From Deltaproteobacteria bacterium (GTDB taxonomy: Bacteria; Desulfobacterota; DSM-4660; Desulfatiglandales; Desulfatiglandaceae): a stretch of DNA of 60,121 bases. The position numbers and the translations under genes were made by a program. Positions within the stretch are counted from its first letter, which is position 1; each line of letters starts with the position of its first letter. Positions 41,027 to 59,609 of this stretch are shown here, one piece after another. Location: NCBI GenBank assembly GCA_029933075.1, contig JAOZOW010000007.1, positions 1 through 60,121 of the forward strand, in the 5' to 3' direction. The notes under the pieces were generated by a model, which did no database searches, was not told where the DNA came from, and saw only the letters and a program-made list of their open reading frames with translations.

Positions 41027-43051
41027 CTAGAAAAAAACATCTAACTTAACTGTAAAAGTTCTCCCGGTGCGAAAATTACCTTCATCACCTTTATCAGAGT
41101 TAAAAATGTTGTCTGCCTCAAAAGACACCTTGGCCTTGTCGGAAAGGTATTTGTAGATTTTCGCATCGACGACAGTATGCCCATCGATCTGGGTGGTGTT
41201 GCCCGAATTTGTGAACTGCTTGCCGATGTATGAAATCACGGCGCCGGTGCCCAGACCATATCTCTTCAGTTCGTATGCAGGTGAAAAAGTGACACTGTGT
41301 TTAGGAACATAGGTCAATTCTTTTCCGGTCTCTTCGTTTTCGGTTTTTGTATAAGTATAAGATATGGTAGCGGTAAATTCTTCGCTCAGATACGTCCTGC
41401 ACATGAACTCAAGGCCCTGCGTCCAGGCTTTTTCTACATTCTTGTATATTTTCAGGGGCAGGCCGTTATACGTGGTGCCTGTATCTTCCCTTATTACCAT
41501 ATCATCCACGTCATTACGGAAATAACCCAGATTGACCATTATGCCCCGATCGAAAAACCATTTTTCTATGCTTGCGGAATAACCAACAGCCTTTTCCGGC
41601 TTCAGATTCGGATTAGACTGGCAGTAGTAACTGCCGTGCCTGTACGGAGCATCGTAATAGAGTTGACGAATGGTGGGTGATTTAAAGGCCTTGCCTACTG
41701 AAGCTCGAAGGATTGTGTCCTCTGAAATCTTGTACATCAGGCTTAATTTGGGGTTTACCTCACTTCCAAAGCTGGAATGGTCGTCATAGCGCAGACCTCC
41801 AACCAGGGTGAAAGCCTTAAAAAGAGTAATCTCATCCTGGACATACAAGCTGGAGGTGTCCACGTCTTTCTTGACACTTATTATACTGCCATCAGAGTTT
41901 TCTATGGTGTAATCAATACCCTGCCTTTGAATTTCGCCCCCCAGGGTGAGAGCATTCCAATCGCTGGAATACCATGTGTACTGGACCTCACACTGGTTAT
42001 ACCCGACATCGCCATATTTATATCCATAAGCATAACCGGGATAACCATGCGTGAAATCCCATGTGTATGCATATCCCTTCAAAGAAAAGAAATGGTCATC
42101 ACTCGGACGAAAGTCAATTCCGGCAGAAACGCGATAACTATCCTCCTCTCGGTTGTCCGTCTTTTCATAATCGCTCGCTTCACCTTTTAGGTAAAGATCA
42201 ATGCCATCGCCAAGATTCGCATTCAGCTTGCCCATAAAAGAGTGGCGATCAGATTTGATCGGATCCTGGCTTATGTCTTCTGCACTATCATAATTGTAAT
42301 GCAGCAAATACCCAATGCGATCCGATATCTTGTCGCCAAAAGAAACATAGGCCTGAGAGAGATTCCGGCTATGCCCGTAGTCTGAAGGTTTCGTAATTGT
42401 CCCATTCTTATTCCTCTCTTTCACCTTGTACCAACCATAGGCTACACCGGCTTTGCCGGTGGCCTTCTCTGGAATTCTCTTGGTGATAATATTGATAACA
42501 CCGGCCACAGCATCACTTCCGTATAATGCCGAACTAGGGCCTTTGACTATTTCGATCCTTTCGATCATGTCCACGGGAATCTGGTTGAGGCCGATGCCAT
42601 ATTCACCCATGCCGCCGCTTTGACCACAGCCCATTACCCTTTGTCCATCAATAAGGATCAGGCCATAACCGTCATTAAAGCTTAACCCTCGCAGATTGGC
42701 TCGCCAGGTGTATGTTCCGAAGACATCATCATGGACAGATGTGTCAATTCCCGGAATATTTTTCAAGATATCCATTACGTTTTGTCCGTTGGTTCGCTCG
42801 ATATCTTCCTTGGTAATCACGATAGTTTCCACCGGAACATCCTTTAAAGCGTGTGGTGTTTTGGTCGCGGTTACCACGATATTGTCCAGCGAGGTTACAA
42901 CCTCTTCCTTGGGTTCATCAGCCCTAGCAATGTTTACCGATGCAGCCATAGCTGCAGCCAAGACTATTGCCAGAATACTTTTTGACATATGAACAAAAAG
43001 GCTGGCCATCGAAGATGGCTGAAGTTTCCTTTTTGTTGGTCTTTTCGTCAT
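41027..43051 (-). CDS. TonB-dependent outer-membrane receptor 1
   Basis: A 674-residue outer-membrane receptor. Signal peptide (about 22-45), TonB box region (DNIVVTATKTP), plug domain (about 60-170, with RANLRGLSFNDGYGLILIDGQRV and VKGPSSALYGSDAVAGVINIIT), then a 22-strand barrel ending in an aromatic residue (VKLDVFF). The plug loop has an unusual GCGQSGGMGEYG. The family is BtuB/colicin I type. AAAGGAG precedes the ATG by 11 bases. It heads an operon with DUF4198 and NikL-like genes and follows a conserved leader element. The ligand is probably a nickel, cobalt or tetrapyrrole complex, by context only. Confidence 0.93.
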   Translation of the reverse strand: MTKRPTKRKLQPSSMASLFVHMSKSILAIVLAAAMAASVNIARADEPKEEVVTSLDNIVVTATKTPHALKDVPVETIVITKEDIERTNGQNVMDILKNIPGIDTSVHDDVFGTYTWRANLRGLSFNDGYGLILIDGQRVMGCGQSGGMGEYGIGLNQIPVDMIERIEIVKGPSSALYGSDAVAGVINIITKRIPEKATGKAGVAYGWYKVKERNKNGTITKPSDYGHSRNLSQAYVSFGDKISDRIGYLLHYNYDSAEDISQDPIKSDRHSFMGKLNANLGDGIDLYLKGEASDYEKTDNREEDSYRVSAGIDFRPSDDHFFSLKGYAYTWDFTHGYPGYAYGYKYGDVGYNQCEVQYTWYSSDWNALTLGGEIQRQGIDYTIENSDGSIISVKKDVDTSSLYVQDEITLFKAFTLVGGLRYDDHSSFGSEVNPKLSLMYKISEDTILRASVGKAFKSPTIRQLYYDAPYRHGSYYCQSNPNLKPEKAVGYSASIEKWFFDRGIMVNLGYFRNDVDDMVIREDTGTTYNGLPLKIYKNVEKAWTQGLEFMCRTYLSEEFTATISYTYTKTENEETGKELTYVPKHSVTFSPAYELKRYGLGTGAVISYIGKQFTNSGNTTQIDGHTVVDAKIYKYLSDKAKVSFEADNIFNSDKGDEGNFRTGRTFTVKLDVFF

Positions 43052-43137
43052 TGTTTTTGATTCTCCTTTCTAACAGTCATAATGAAGAAAAATGAATGCC
43101 CTTGAAAACCACCCTGGATTGAATTGACGAACCATTG

Positions 43138-43248
43138 CTACGGTGGTACAAGAATAACGAAGCATCCCTCACCCCGAGGGGTCTTCACGGGGAAGGCAGA
43201 TTTTAGACCTTTGCAGAGGACGAGATGCCTTCCCCCACCCTTTTTCAT
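43138..43248 (-). CDS. Possible 36-residue leader peptide upstream of receptor 1
   Basis: An ATG frame of 36 codons crosses the conserved leader. Residues 21-30 are VKTPRGEGCF, also found at residues 22-31 of the frame at 58452-58619. The N-terminal half is basic and not conserved. No good ribosome binding site stands close to the ATG. Because the shared block is identical at every base, including third codon positions, an RNA function explains it at least as well as a peptide. Confidence 0.25.
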   Translation of the reverse strand: MKKGGGRHLVLCKGLKSAFPVKTPRGEGCFVILVPP

Positions 43249-43290
43249 CTCTGATTCCCTAAACTGTGTTTTCTTCTCTCACCTCCTTTC
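43141..43290 (-). promoter_or_regulatory. Conserved leader RNA element, copy 1 (upstream of receptor 1)
   Basis: In transcript order: GAAAGGAGGTGA (43279-43290), a variable stretch, a perfect 10-bp stem GGGGAAGGCA (43226-43235) with TGCCTTCCCC (43189-43198) around a 27-base loop, a 30-base block (43159-43188) identical to copy 2 that can fold as GAAG-CTTC enclosing an ACCC/GGGT hairpin, and ACCACCG (43141-43147). Copy 2 at 58509-58692 has the same order with a different loop. I know no riboswitch class with this pattern. Confidence 0.7.
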
Positions 43291-43314
43291 GGTTCACTGG
43301 TCCCGTCCACACAA

Positions 43315-43370
43315 AATAAAGCCACGAAGCCGCATTCCCTTCCGGGAACATGGACCTTCGTGGCCTTTTT
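43315..43370. terminator. GGCCACGAAG-family hairpin 1
   Basis: GCCACGAAG (43321-43329) pairs with CTTCGTGGC (43356-43364), with an inner TTCCC/GGGAA hairpin. T-rich flanks on both strands make it a bidirectional intrinsic terminator candidate. It lies between the FmdE operon and receptor 1, only 25 bases upstream of the leader element, so it may also act inside that leader. Confidence 0.65.
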
Positions 43371-43494
43371 CGCTTGACTTCCCTCCGCTCGAAGCGGAGC
43401 TTGCTATTTTTGTGGCCTCCTTACTTAAGGGGCCTTGGTACCTCTCGTAATAGAGCCTATATGAACGGCTTCTGCCGCTCCTATCAGGTAGGTC

Positions 43495-43523
43495 TTATTA
43501 CTTCAGCAACTCCGCCAAGTCAA
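43495..43523 (-). promoter_or_regulatory. Candidate promoter for the receptor 1 transcript
   Basis: Minus strand TTGACT, 17 bases, TAATAA. If used, the transcript would contain hairpin 1 and the conserved leader before the receptor start, a leader of about 435 bases. The -35 lies within the end of a small upstream frame. Confidence 0.4.
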
Positions 43524-53045: not shown

Positions 53046-54524
53046 TTACTTCATCACCTCATTGAAAATATCTCGACGATCAAGTGCAAGCCAATACTGA
53101 ATCGCGAGTTCTCTGATATGGGCAAAGTACTCTGTGCTCAAGCCTTCGTACCTCTTTAATGCCTTCTTGATCTCTGCTCTTATGTTTTGCATCCACGCTG
53201 GTTTCAGCTTTAAGGTCAGTTTTTTCTCCTTGTAAAAGAAGGCTGCCGCTGGTTCCGGCTCCCCCTCAGATATCTCGATATTCCCTCGACCCAGACTCGC
53301 ACCGGTAGCCACCTGAAGCCCATCATTCATGCAGCTCAAAGGAGGAGCATTCCCAGCAAATGAAACGACCTTCAGCTCATCAAAGGGAGCTTCTAAGATT
53401 TCTCTTGCCCTTACCCCCATTTTGGCCCCGATGAGGGAATATACACCCAGGTGGCGGTGAAACTCATTAGTCAAAAGGCAGGCTTTCCATTCTTCAAGAC
53501 CATATTTTTCAATGATCTTTTTCACGTGGGGGCTTACGTCTTCCCTGAACAGGGAGGGATTGCTCGGAAAAAGCTTAAAGGCTACCGGATAGCGGGGGCT
53601 TAGGTGGAAGTCCGCCAAATGACCCAGGAGTTTCAAATAGATCTCATAGACGCCAGCCCTCCTAAAGGTCGCAAGCGACATTACATGAGGATGATTGCCT
53701 GAGGGAACAAACTTAAAAAGCGATGGACGATTTAGGTAAATGACAGTCATCTCATCCCATACATAAAAGTGCCCCATAGATAAAAGCTTTCTAACGGCAG
53801 GGGGCTCATGGATCTTAGCCACCAGGCGGGCTGGTGTTGTATTCATGCTTTCTATTTGTTCGTAGAGCTTCTTGTCAAAATGAAGTAGTTTTTCCTCTGG
53901 AAGGGCTATGGAATAAATATTTAGGCCCGAATCGAAAATGAAACTGGCGGAGTCCGGATCTCGGGTCGTGTTCCAGCCGGGAGAGGGGTCATTCGGATGT
54001 CCTCCAAAATAAACGAGCCGCGAGATCTTTTCGTTCATCCCGGGACACAGTCGAAGGGCCCCCGCCAGATTGGTTAAAGGTCCAAGGCAAAGGTATACTG
54101 CCCGCGTTTCTAAGGCCTTCAGTGCCCTTACAATTTCCTCTGAAGCTGGGTGATCCAGAGCTGTTTTGTTATCACCTACGTTTATTTCGGGCCACTTCAC
54201 ATCCTCAGTCCATGAGCGCCACTGAGGCGCTCGTTTTCCCAGTACCTTACCTGCGGCTACCGGGATTTCTTGACGTCCAAAATATCTCAGCAGCCTTATT
54301 AAACTTTTGCAACCGGTCTTGGGAGATACGGCTCCGTCTGAAGTGACAATCAACCGGATATCAACCATGTCCGAGTTTAGGAGCATGGCAATTGCACGGA
54401 TGTCATCAAGGGCCATGTCCGTATCCACAAGGACAGGCACCCTGTATGTATGGGCATGCACTATATGAGAGAAGAGGCAAAATAGTAGTGACACATAAAG
54501 TGCCGCATACCTTTTTCGAAACAT
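53046..54524 (-). CDS. Exported nucleoside-hydrolase-like protein fused to an FmdE domain
   Basis: A 492-residue periplasmic protein. Signal peptide (about 1-24, ending HIVHA). The N-terminal domain is inosine/uridine-preferring nucleoside hydrolase-like: calcium-binding VDTDMALDD (Asp34, 36, 40, 41), LGPLTNLAGAL, and WDEMTVIYL with its late Asp. Residues about 352-450 form an FmdE domain: FHRHLGVYSLIGAKMG, PPLSCMNDGLQVATGASLGRGNIE. I know of no common protein with both. The ATG at 54524 has GAGG 6 bases upstream. It may cleave a glycosidic bond of a nucleotide-bearing cofactor in the periplasm while FmdE binds metal. Confidence 0.82.
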   Translation of the reverse strand: MFRKRYAALYVSLLFCLFSHIVHAHTYRVPVLVDTDMALDDIRAIAMLLNSDMVDIRLIVTSDGAVSPKTGCKSLIRLLRYFGRQEIPVAAGKVLGKRAPQWRSWTEDVKWPEINVGDNKTALDHPASEEIVRALKALETRAVYLCLGPLTNLAGALRLCPGMNEKISRLVYFGGHPNDPSPGWNTTRDPDSASFIFDSGLNIYSIALPEEKLLHFDKKLYEQIESMNTTPARLVAKIHEPPAVRKLLSMGHFYVWDEMTVIYLNRPSLFKFVPSGNHPHVMSLATFRRAGVYEIYLKLLGHLADFHLSPRYPVAFKLFPSNPSLFREDVSPHVKKIIEKYGLEEWKACLLTNEFHRHLGVYSLIGAKMGVRAREILEAPFDELKVVSFAGNAPPLSCMNDGLQVATGASLGRGNIEISEGEPEPAAAFFYKEKKLTLKLKPAWMQNIRAEIKKALKRYEGLSTEYFAHIRELAIQYWLALDRRDIFNEVMK

Positions 54525-54586
54525 TTTTAACCTCATATAAGAAAGGACGTTATGCGCTACGCCTTGAGCCCCGTACATCTTTTATG

Positions 54587-56364: not shown

Positions 56365-58422
56365 TTAAAATTTCACGCCGAACTGGAAGCCCCAAAGATA
56401 CTTCGGCATCTCATAACCGGCAATTTCTTCATAATCGGCTCCAGTCACGTTGTTAACAAACACTTTAGCCGTATAGTCCATGCCATGGAATTTGAACTCT
56501 TGCTCGAATCCCACGTCGGCCGTGATATAGTCATCAAGCTTTGAGCCTTTCTGAGCGTTACGAGTGCCCACATAACGGGAGCTTAACTGGAACCACCCAC
56601 CCTCCCAGACCTTATATCGGGCCAATAACTTGACTTTGTGTTTAGGCAGAAGTGCAGGGAGGTAGTAAGTCCAATTCTTTTCGAAGCTTGTCTTCTCTGC
56701 ATCAAATTCCTGATAAACATAAGCTGCGGTTGCCCTGAACCTTCCTCCCAGACGAATGGTGGCTTCAACTTCGGCACCATACAGCTTAAAATGATCGATG
56801 TTATAAAGACAGTCGCTGCCGAGACCCGAACCAGGGGCGGTAATACCATTGTCATTAATGAAGTTTTCAATATCATAATAAAACAACGCTGCCCTAACAC
56901 TCAGTGGTTTGAAATCTTGTATGATCCCGACCTCATACTCCCAGGCCGATTCCGGATCCAGTGAACTATTAACGACGGACGCGCACCGCGCCCACCAGTA
57001 GTAGTCTCATGGACAAGGGAGTCGATAGGAGCGGCTTACAGCTGCATAAAGGGCTGTCTGCAGGGAGGCCTGGAAGTCTACCTTTAGGCTTGGATATAGG
57101 CCGGAGTCGTCCTGTTTTTTGCCGGATATGGGCCAGCCGGCGCCAAACTGCGAATAATAGGTATCCATATCCACCTTGTAATATCTAACCCCCGGTGTGA
57201 CGGTCCAGCGATCCCCGAGCCGAATGACGTCCTGCGCATATGCTGATTGGACCTGGTATATAATGGGGTTTTGATCTGGCCAGCCAAGTTCCTGGTATTC
57301 CATACCCATCGTGAGACTGTGCGAATCGGATAGATTAACATCCCGATATTCGATGATAAATCCTTTGGTCCTGTCATCGACGAAGTGGTCCTTGTCAAAT
57401 GTACCCATCTTCGTGTACAGGCTGGTCCAACGCCTGCCCGCAGTCTCAAAATAGTGAACCTTGCCGATTCCAGGCCCCATAGGGATTTGAAAAATTGCAT
57501 CTATGTAAGAGGTGTGTTTTTCCCAGTGGGGATTATTCGCTGCATATTGTGGCCAGTTCAGGTGCCTTAACTGGTCGGCATCTGCTCTAAATATGGGATA
57601 ATCCGGGTCATAGTCGGCCCTCGCCGGGTCATTGACAACCGGAAAGCCGTAATCTATATTACAATACTTAAATCCAAGACTGAGGCTGGCCTCGCGGGGG
57701 AGGTAAAAGGTAAGGTGACCGTTTATACTCTTTGTATCCTGGTAGTTGTTTCTGAGGTACCCATCGGTTTCTTGCTTGCTGGCTGAAAAATTGTAACCGA
57801 TCCGATTGTTGACACCCCCGTTGATGGAAGCTGATAGGTTGTACGTATTAAAATCTCCATAGCCTGCCTTGAGACCCATTTCAGGTTTAAGCTCCTTGGT
57901 CTTTTTCCCTTTTTTGGTGATAATGTTAATTACGCCCCCTATGGCAAAGGGATGAAGCACTGAATGCCCTCCCCGAATAATCTCGATACGCTCAATGTCA
58001 TCGATGTTCAACGTGGACCAATCTACGATATACCTTCCATAATGCCCGGTTTGATTAATCCTCCGTCCATCAATCTCGATAACCATCCGGCCCTCATTGA
58101 GCCCACGGATAGATACTTCATCCCCCGGGCTGGCCATAAGCGGGTTGGCCCGCTGGACATCAATTCCACCAATTTCGGTGAGAACATCGGTTAGTGTTCG
58201 CACCTCGCCCGGCTTCTTGAATTCATCTACCCGGATGATCGTCTTCTCAGGCGTAATCTCAACGCCAGGTTGGGGCGCCATGACCGTGATTCTCCCAAGG
58301 TCGACAATCTCTGAATGCTCGACCTGGGGCCAGGCATTTCCTGTGAGCAGGCCAAGCATTGAAATGCAGCCTATGAAGAAACTATTGATCCATAAGAATG
58401 TGCTGTTCGCCTTTGATCGCAT
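56365..58422 (-). CDS. TonB-dependent outer-membrane receptor 2, interrupted by one in-frame UGA
   Basis: Receptor of 685 residues if UGA is read. Signal peptide (about 1-33), TonB-box region, plug (VSIRGLNEGRMVIEIDGRRI, IEIIRGGHSVLHPFAIGGVINIITK), and a barrel ending in GFQFGVKF. An in-frame UGA at 57007-57009 is codon 472, in the context RLPCP-UGA-DYYWW; the same frame continues without stop for 213 more codons to a normal end. In receptor 1 the equivalent position is Arg, so a CGA-to-TGA change is possible. A SECIS-like hairpin follows the UGA. The ATG at 58422 has AAGGAG 9 bases upstream. The gene heads the operon with the exported methylase-fold, DUF4198 and hydrolase-FmdE genes. Confidence 0.85.
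56965..57009 (-). promoter_or_regulatory. Possible bacterial SECIS hairpin directly after the UGA
   Basis: On the minus strand one base after UGA: ACTACTA (57005-56999) pairs 6 of 7 with TAATAGT (56971-56965); after an internal loop, GGGCGCG (56993-56987) pairs with CGCGTCC (56983-56977) around the loop GTG. The apical loop begins with G 20 bases after UGA, like E. coli fdhF. It could be chance in a GC-rich stretch coding for WARCAS. Confidence 0.4.
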
Positions 58423-58451
58423 CTTTCTAAACTCCTTCCTCAATTGATTGC

Positions 58452-58619
58452 TTATTTAATAGGATACGGCCCCGGGGTTGAAAGTAAGCGATAGACGAGG
58501 AAAGACTTCAGTGGTAGAATATAATTGAAGCATCCCTCACCCCGAGGGGTCTTCACCATGGAAGGCAGCCGGGAAACCCTGGCCGGGAGAAAGGCTGCCT
58601 TCCTCACCTTGCGATCCAT
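58452..58619 (-). CDS. Possible 55-residue leader peptide upstream of receptor 2
   Basis: An ATG frame of 55 codons ending 29 bases before the receptor start. Residues 22-31 read VKTPRGEGCF, as in the 36-residue frame of leader 1. The rest is basic and unconserved. No ribosome binding site is close to the ATG. May be translated or only a passenger of the RNA element. Confidence 0.25.
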   Translation of the reverse strand: MDRKVRKAAFLPARVSRLPSMVKTPRGEGCFNYILPLKSFLVYRLLSTPGPYPIK

Positions 58620-58692
58620 AATTTCTTACACTTCTGATCCGCTTGTGCGTGTCTTACGCAGAGAGGCCGCCTTTGCTCGATCACCTCCTTTC
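58509..58692 (-). promoter_or_regulatory. Conserved leader RNA element, copy 2 (upstream of receptor 2)
   Basis: GAAAGGAGGTGA (58681-58692), then an 11-bp stem GGAAGGCAGCC (58593-58603) with GGCTGCCTTCC (58560-58570) around a 22-base loop, then the 30-base block 58527-58556 identical to copy 1, then ACCACTG (58509-58515). The stem shares GGAAGGCA with copy 1, but it extends inward here and outward in copy 1, so pairing is kept while sequence changes. That favours a folded RNA. Confidence 0.7.
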
Positions 58693-58700
58693 AATGCATA

Positions 58701-58760
58701 AAAAACAAAAAAGCCAAAAAGACCGCCCGGATTTCGATCCGATCGTGCCTTCTTGGCTTA
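58701..58760. terminator. GGCCACGAAG-family hairpin 4 (divergent)
   Basis: AAGCCAA (58711-58717) pairs with TTGGCTT (58753-58759), with an inner CGGAT-TTCG-ATCCG hairpin. Long T runs follow on the minus strand. It lies between tonB and receptor 2 and only 9 bases before leader element 2. Confidence 0.65.
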
Positions 58761-58823
58761 TTGTTGGATTAAGATAGCCTCTTGGTTTAGAAGCGCAATT
58801 TCCTATTGCACATTTGACCGACT

Positions 58824-58904: not shown

Positions 58905-59609
58905 TCATGTAAGTTCAAACACGATGGTGATCTCCAAGGGAATCGGCCCCTTGAACAGATGGCTTGGCGGCCTCGGAAAGGGGGATGCTTTTCGTACGGC
59001 GTCAAGGGCCGCCCGGTCCAGGGCCCTGTTTCTGGCGCTCTTAACGATCTTCAGGGTGGTGACCCGGCCGTCAGGGGCAATTACAAAACGGACCGTGGCC
59101 CGACCCTCAATCTGTCTGATCCTGGCAGTGTCGGGATATCTTTTATAACTCTCTATCCTGAGCCTTATCATGTCGAAATAGTCACCTGGGTTGATATAAT
59201 CACCGATGCCGGCATTGACCCGGGGCCCGGGATCCCATGCCGCGATCTTCGGTCCCGCATCGAGAGGGAGCTCGGGCATACTCACCCGCTCCACGAGGGT
59301 ATCGGGCAAGACCCTTTCCACAGGATCAACCTTCATCGGTTTTAGTGTCGGAATCACTGTCTTGCGCAGATTCAGCCTTTTTACATCCCTTGGTCGTTCG
59401 CGCGTCTTAGGCCGCATACGGGGTCTGGGAATACTTCTGGACGGAGGTTTGGAAATATCCTTCAGTGTCAACTCAATAAAGGTCAATGCCCTGGAGCGGT
59501 ACACCCCGGCGATGTGCATGAATATAAGCAGATGAATGCCGAGGGAAACACAGATCAGGCTGCGGAGCAACCAGTTGGGTCTTCTTTTGTTTTTAGACAC
59601 GGATTTCAC
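58905..59609 (-). CDS. tonB: TonB-family energy transducer
   Basis: A 234-residue protein: N-terminal membrane anchor (about 14-34), a basic proline-containing linker (RSIPRPRMRPKTRERPRD), and the C-terminal TonB domain with RIESYKRYPDTARI, EGRATVRFVIAPDGRVTTLKIVKS and DRAALDAVRKASPFPRPP. It transmits proton-motive force to the receptors. The start is GTG at 59609, overlapping the preceding stop as GTGA; no ribosome binding site is visible, so coupling is likely. exbB and exbD are not in the window. Confidence 0.92.
   Translation of the reverse strand: MKSVSKNKRRPNWLLRSLICVSLGIHLLIFMHIAGVYRSRALTFIELTLKDISKPPSRSIPRPRMRPKTRERPRDVKRLNLRKTVIPTLKPMKVDPVERVLPDTLVERVSMPELPLDAGPKIAAWDPGPRVNAGIGDYINPGDYFDMIRLRIESYKRYPDTARIRQIEGRATVRFVIAPDGRVTTLKIVKSARNRALDRAALDAVRKASPFPRPPSHLFKGPIPLEITIVFELT

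Follow-up and report, generated by a model that had tools for sequence, protein, structure and literature searches.

A conserved structured RNA, probably encoded opposite TonB-dependent receptor genes in Desulfobacterota, is a candidate regulator of the facing receptor

The window, that is, the whole stretch of DNA analyzed (60,121 nucleotides), carries two copies of a conserved structured RNA that probably lies on the strand opposite to the TonB-dependent receptor gene beside it. Comparison between loci establishes the conserved structure, its strand, promoter-like boxes, and a constant receptor neighbor. The element is very likely a separate RNA gene on the plus strand with a predicted promoter of its own, and the predicted genes extend from about 43159 to 43370 (copy 1) and from about 58527 to 58762 (copy 2). 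As to function, we lean slightly, judging from the sequences, toward a cis-encoded antisense or interference regulator of the facing receptor. The RNA family is undescribed so far, and no description of the element was found within the open-access literature. It provides a testable RNA family in uncultured Desulfobacterota, beside receptor genes whose substrates and control are obscure.

The first-pass annotation had described the element as blocks shared by two receptor leaders (43141-43290 and 58509-58692), and all of these blocks are present in both leaders at those positions, on the minus strand: GAAAGGAGGTGA, a GGAAGGC/GCCTTCC stem common to both copies with unrelated loops, the 30-base block GTGAAGACCCCTCGGGGTGAGGGATGCTTC with the same letters in copies 1 and 2, and ACCAC(C/T)G. 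The genome contains exactly two copies, as found with covariance model R2 (E = 5e-20 and 2e-19; next best E = 0.96). Searching with a 28-base pattern, three mismatches allowed, likewise yields only these two copies in the genome, and outside it relatives in four further genomes of the order. In Rfam, the only matches at gathering score in the window and in 20 homologous loci are tRNA and tRNA-Sec genes elsewhere, and no meaningful match is found at copy 1 or copy 2 with E up to 5. A known Rfam family is ruled out as the identity of the element by zero matches at the element itself. The claim of a conserved structured RNA that is tied to TonB-dependent receptor genes and has no Rfam family is supported.

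Two covariance models give the distribution. Model R1 was made from seven copies, built in minus orientation, and includes the −10 side of the promoter while the −35 side is excluded; model R2 also takes in the promoter region. R1 finds the element in 20 of the 85 genomes of the class, plus some other families of the phylum. With R2, the numbers are 22 of the 85 class genomes and 30 of 395 genomes across the phylum. The covariance models place the element in about 20 more genomes of the phylum beyond the class. Further loci in Desulfobacteraceae, Desulfobacterales, and Candidatus Desulfatibia vada come from GTDB contigs, where a pattern scan gives eight true loci among 80 fetched, the remainder being chance matches. 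Three candidates (L033, L232, and L235) were rejected as false positives that have no receptor and/or lie inside coding sequence. The shared blocks are far beyond chance, given their recurrence in 22 of the 85 class genomes and the covariation described below. The element is present in many genera with different surroundings, which rules out recent duplication as the sole explanation; the first-pass annotation had argued against a recent large duplication from the differing genes around the two copies. In L058 (1786-2100) and L103 (4901-5220), which are from different organisms, the RNA body and terminator are near-identical, whereas the promoters and the receptor neighbors differ, setting the RNA body apart as a unit. 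These two loci look as if the RNA body had been exchanged as a module.

The RNA consists of a promoter, a 5′ hairpin (P2), a linker ACC, a second hairpin (P1), a tail, and usually a terminator-like hairpin. The consensus of P2 is GAAGC-AU-CCCUC / GAGGG-GCUUC. In copy 2, P2 (GAAGC-AT-CCCTC/GAGGGG-TCTTC) is at 58527-58554 on the plus strand, as judged from covariation and wobbles, and in copy 1 the same hairpin is at 43159-43186; the first base of each is the predicted start of the RNA. P1 is strongly conserved, with the consensus GGAAGGCAGC ... GCUGCCUUCC and CCyUGGC in the loop. It is found by covariation at 43189-43235 in copy 1 (GGGGAAGGCA...TGCCTTCCCC) and at 58560-58603 in copy 2 (GGAAGGCAGCC...GGCTGCCTTCC, with CCCTGGC in the loop), both on the plus strand. 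The covariation of both helices exceeds all 500 column shuffles by three measures (0 of 500 shuffles reach it), and the two helices together show 21 two-sided cells vs 8.2 in shuffles. The folding z-scores of the two leaders as single sequences are not significant, and the evidence for structure is that of the comparison between species. The first-pass annotation would have been refuted by two copies alone and an absence of covariation, and neither is the case.

The strand should be noted, since the first-pass annotation had placed the element on the receptor strand, as a cis-regulatory leader or riboswitch. G-U wobbles in P1 and P2 number 46 on the plus strand vs 14 on the minus strand, with 17 loci favoring plus and one favoring minus, and in P2 alone at 47 loci they number 75 vs 18, where all of these counts take related loci as independent. 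Of 24 loci, 22 have the lower single-sequence folding energy on the plus strand (p = 4e-5), and the consensus fold gives −51.6 on plus vs −47.3 on minus. The P2 arms of a locus pair better with each other than with those of other loci when read on the plus strand (p = 1e-4), vs p = 0.09 on the minus strand. R1 was built in minus orientation, so the search itself cannot have produced the plus-strand signal at its loci. An element wholly on the minus strand is disfavored by the wobbles, the energies, and the promoter boxes alike, and the receptor-strand leader is therefore unsupported.

The promoter-like boxes lie 6-8 nt ahead of P2. On the plus strand they follow the sigma-70-like consensus TTGAC(G/A), 17 nt, TGnTAnnAA. 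The sequences CGTCAA and TACCAC of the receptor leader read as TTGACG and TGGTA on this strand, and ACCAC(C/T)G with the downstream CGTCAA is the reverse complement of the −10 and −35 boxes. Across 47 loci, the −35 box is conserved position by position (T47 T45 G46 A45 C45), TA of the −10 box is present in all 47, the extended −10 TG is present in 37-39, and the spacer is 17 nt in 41 loci and 18 nt in six. The −35 box was excluded from R1 and is therefore independent evidence for the 31 loci found by R1. Position 6 of the −10 box is mostly A in place of T, showing that this is not a textbook sigma-70 site. Copy 1 has the −35-like box TTGACG (43124-43129) and the −10-like box TACAAG with an extended TGG (43147-43152), the latter being too weak for a strict consensus scan. 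Copy 2 has TAGACG (58492-58497; family consensus TTGACG/A) and TAGAAT with an extended TGG (58515-58520). All four boxes are on the plus strand.

The neighboring gene is nearly constant. The first divergent gene in the 34 main loci is a TonB-dependent receptor in 32 and a DUF4198 gene followed by a receptor in two, and a receptor is the neighbor in 13 of 16 weaker loci too. The genome itself contains only five receptor plug domains. Copy 1 is divergent from receptor 1 (41027-43051, minus strand; Pfam PF00593 and PF07715), and copy 2 is divergent from receptor 2 (56365-58443, minus strand; NF049947). The −35 box is under about 100 bp from the receptor start codon, and about 30 bp from it in some loci. 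Such a short gap leaves room for the receptor promoter only next to or inside the RNA gene, and at 30-100 bp an overlap between the RNA and the receptor mRNA would be forced in the tightest loci. The gene beyond the RNA is mostly on the receptor strand and is frequently tonB; at copy 2, a TonB gene (58905-59609, minus strand; Pfam PF03544) is convergent with the RNA. In seven loci, this gene points away from the receptor, indicating that read-through from upstream is not a general rule.

This arrangement leads to the mechanism that we slightly favor. The small RNA gene would stand head to head with the receptor gene, with its promoter in or against the receptor leader, and the RNA and its promoter would overlap the region where the receptor mRNA starts or passes. 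Making the RNA would then lower receptor expression, through pairing with the nascent leader and/or interference between promoters. For an antisense regulator, a promoter opposite to the target is expected, and one is predicted here from boxes at constant spacing in 47 loci. A comparable arrangement is known in the polysaccharide loci of Bacteroides, where cis-antisense RNAs of the DonS type lie opposite and beside the gene for a TonB-linked receptor and are proposed to lower expression of the receptor. The likeness is that of a small RNA opposite to or adjoining a TonB-linked outer-membrane receptor gene. The DonS type, however, belongs to another phylum and is compared here by description, not by sequence or structure; unlike it, the present element has a P1 and a P2 conserved across many families of one phylum.

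A doubtful but possible alternative is a trans-acting small RNA, in which the single-stranded tail motif CACCnCCUUU would bind other mRNAs at their ribosome-binding sites, with the receptor as no more than a co-regulated neighbor. The tail is variable in length (7-110 nt) and often contains UCACCnCCUUU(C). It occupies 43236-43317 in copy 1, with CTCACCTCCTTTC at 43278-43290, and 58604-58709 in copy 2, with ATCACCTCCTTTC at 58680-58692, both on the plus strand; at these two sites, UCACCUCCUUUC is identical to the anti-Shine-Dalgarno end of 16S rRNA. A pyrimidine-rich tail on an RNA with a predicted promoter and terminator of its own is consistent with action in trans, as are the presence of CACCnCCTTT or a close form 40-70 nt past P1 in most main loci and the likeness of paralogous copies within one genome. 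However, pairing of the tail with the ribosome-binding site of its own receptor shows no preference for the locus over other leaders (p = 0.74), the middle base of the motif differs among relatives (T, A, G, or C), which breaks the Shine-Dalgarno core, and several loci with intact P2 and P1 do not have the motif. Trans pairing between the 3′ arm of P2 and the receptor leader was rejected in the same manner, being not locus-specific (p = 0.21). OmrA and OmrB are small RNAs that regulate outer-membrane proteins. They have their own promoter and terminator, as is predicted for the element, and they act on receptor mRNAs, an action that is only proposed for the element. They differ in that their action is in trans on targets that do not adjoin them, and the comparison is by description, not by sequence.

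The terminator-like hairpin (GCCAnGAA...TTCnTGGC) is found in about 23 of 30 loci, 7-110 nt past P1. It is two-directional, the T-run is often better on the other strand, and the hairpin is missing in about one quarter of the loci. In copy 1, it is at 43318-43370 (AAAGCCACGAAG...CTTCGTGGCCTTTTT), and in copy 2 at 58710-58762 (AAAGCCAAAAAGACC...CCTTCTTGGCTTATT; two-directional, with the better T-run on the minus strand), both given for the plus strand. Hairpin arms like these are found at about ten places in the genome, suggesting that the terminator is probably an ordinary one. In L014, L017, and L100, a T-run follows P1 itself, so the RNA may also be a shorter one of about 80 nt.

The −10 box lies within an inverted repeat: the bases that separate the −35 and −10 boxes are complementary to the first 8-13 nt of the RNA. 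The repeat is seen at 43124-43170, at 58492-58540, and in 45 homologous loci. In copy 2, the left arm, AGGAAAGACTTC (58498-58509, plus strand), flanks the −10 box and shows locus-specific complementarity to the 5′ end of the RNA. The complementarity is locus-specific in general (0 of 20000 permutations by duplex energy; 0 of 5000 by alignment), and from species to species both arms change together, taking on unrelated sequences. Wobbles within the repeat number 36 on the minus strand vs 24 on the plus strand (p = 0.16), which leaves the strand unsettled. A covarying inverted repeat is unexplained by an ordinary promoter and could mean a hairpin in the receptor transcript; on the receptor strand, the predicted hairpin would compete with P2.

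Such a hairpin is the basis of another explanation, a receptor leader on the minus strand that acts as a riboswitch or attenuator, in which the 3′ arm of P2 would have two possible partners, the other arm of P2 and the downstream arm of the inverted repeat. The ligand of such a leader, by the conjecture of the first-pass annotation, would be a metal, a cobalamin-like compound, or a tetrapyrrole. The pairing with the downstream arm is specific to each locus, which favors this explanation. In L226, L228, and L230, moreover, a T-run comes after the inverted-repeat hairpin on the minus strand, giving the shape of an intrinsic terminator just ahead of the receptor gene; the start codon is about 30 bp away there, so the receptor mRNA must pass through it. 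Nevertheless, we regard this explanation as very unlikely. The wobbles and folding energy of P1 and P2 favor the plus strand, the conserved CGTCAA and TA at a distance of 17 nt look like a plus-strand promoter, the seven loci noted above have no receptor-strand gene upstream for read-through, and the T-run is missing in nearly all loci other than these three. Wobbles, folding energy, and boxes thus point away from the strand of the regulated gene, where the structured RNA of a riboswitch or leader would lie. Riboswitches for cobalamin, metals, or other cofactors are similar in their neighbor genes (TonB-dependent receptors, TP_methylase, FecCD, and DUF4198), but the element has no Rfam match, is on the other strand, and has its own predicted promoter. 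Had the strand gone uncorrected, looking for ligands of the receptor-strand leader would probably have led nowhere.

RNAI of pT181 and RNAIII of pIP501 are antisense attenuators of plasmids that work through alternative pairing, a:b or b:c. The element resembles them in having an antisense promoter beside a leader with alternative pairings, both of which are locus-specific. In the pT181 type, b:c is an intrinsic terminator, whereas the b:c hairpin of the element mostly has no T-run (three loci have one), showing that intrinsic attenuation is not the common mechanism; the element is also chromosomal and faces a receptor gene, not a replication gene. Since almost no locus beyond these three has the T-run, we do not claim antisense attenuation for the RNA family. 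A wider reading is a phylum-wide small RNA family with the promoter inside the covarying inverted repeat. One stretch of DNA would then encode the small RNA's 5′ hairpin when read one way and, on the other strand, a competing hairpin of the receptor leader, which would amount to a two-strand RNA switch acting on outer-membrane nutrient receptors, of which many are selenoproteins. We consider this unlikely as a whole; if true, the two-strand hairpin arrangement would be a compact coupling of a small RNA with the leader opposite. It is hardly credible that the repeat is the operator of a dimeric repressor controlling both the small RNA and the receptor, with the RNA as a minor part: the arms of 8-13 bp are symmetric about the −10 box and overlap the start site in most main loci, but they differ between species in concert (GAAGTATTCCTC, CGAGGGGT, CTCAACTCT, and CCCATCTC), which is unusual for one regulator, and the distance between the arms changes too.

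The receptor beside copy 2 is a single frame broken by an in-frame TGA (57007-57009) and matches the selenoprotein receptor family NCBIfam NF049947, the PCPU motif type (1265 bits). At least nine loci conserve the motif SRSYRLPCP-TGA-DYYWWARCAS, and the receptors of the related loci L058, L185, and L186 have P-TGA-I-TGA-D (P-U-I-U-D), an exchange of Cys for Sec. A tRNA-Sec candidate in the genome scores 73 bits, above the Rfam cut-off, though the control also matches many genomes, five of 14 above the cut-off. The PCPU receptor type is already known (NF049947); a description of its link with the RNA element was not found in the open-access literature. A related receptor type, FCYXU, has been listed (PMC13188914).

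Two further observations concern the surroundings of the copies. The gene at 53046-54578 (minus strand) fuses a nucleoside hydrolase domain to an FmdE domain, and its cluster contains TP_methylase, DUF4198, a FecCD/periplasmic-binding ABC transporter, a HycI-like protease, and TonB. From this gene content, the cluster probably serves the uptake of a metal or a tetrapyrrole. Past the copy-1 terminator, the sequence at 43371-43520 (GAGCGGCAGAAGCCGTTCATATnGGCT...) is common to L006 and L007 and similar in L013, and it resembles either the last part of a coding sequence or a remnant past the gene for the FmdE-domain protein.
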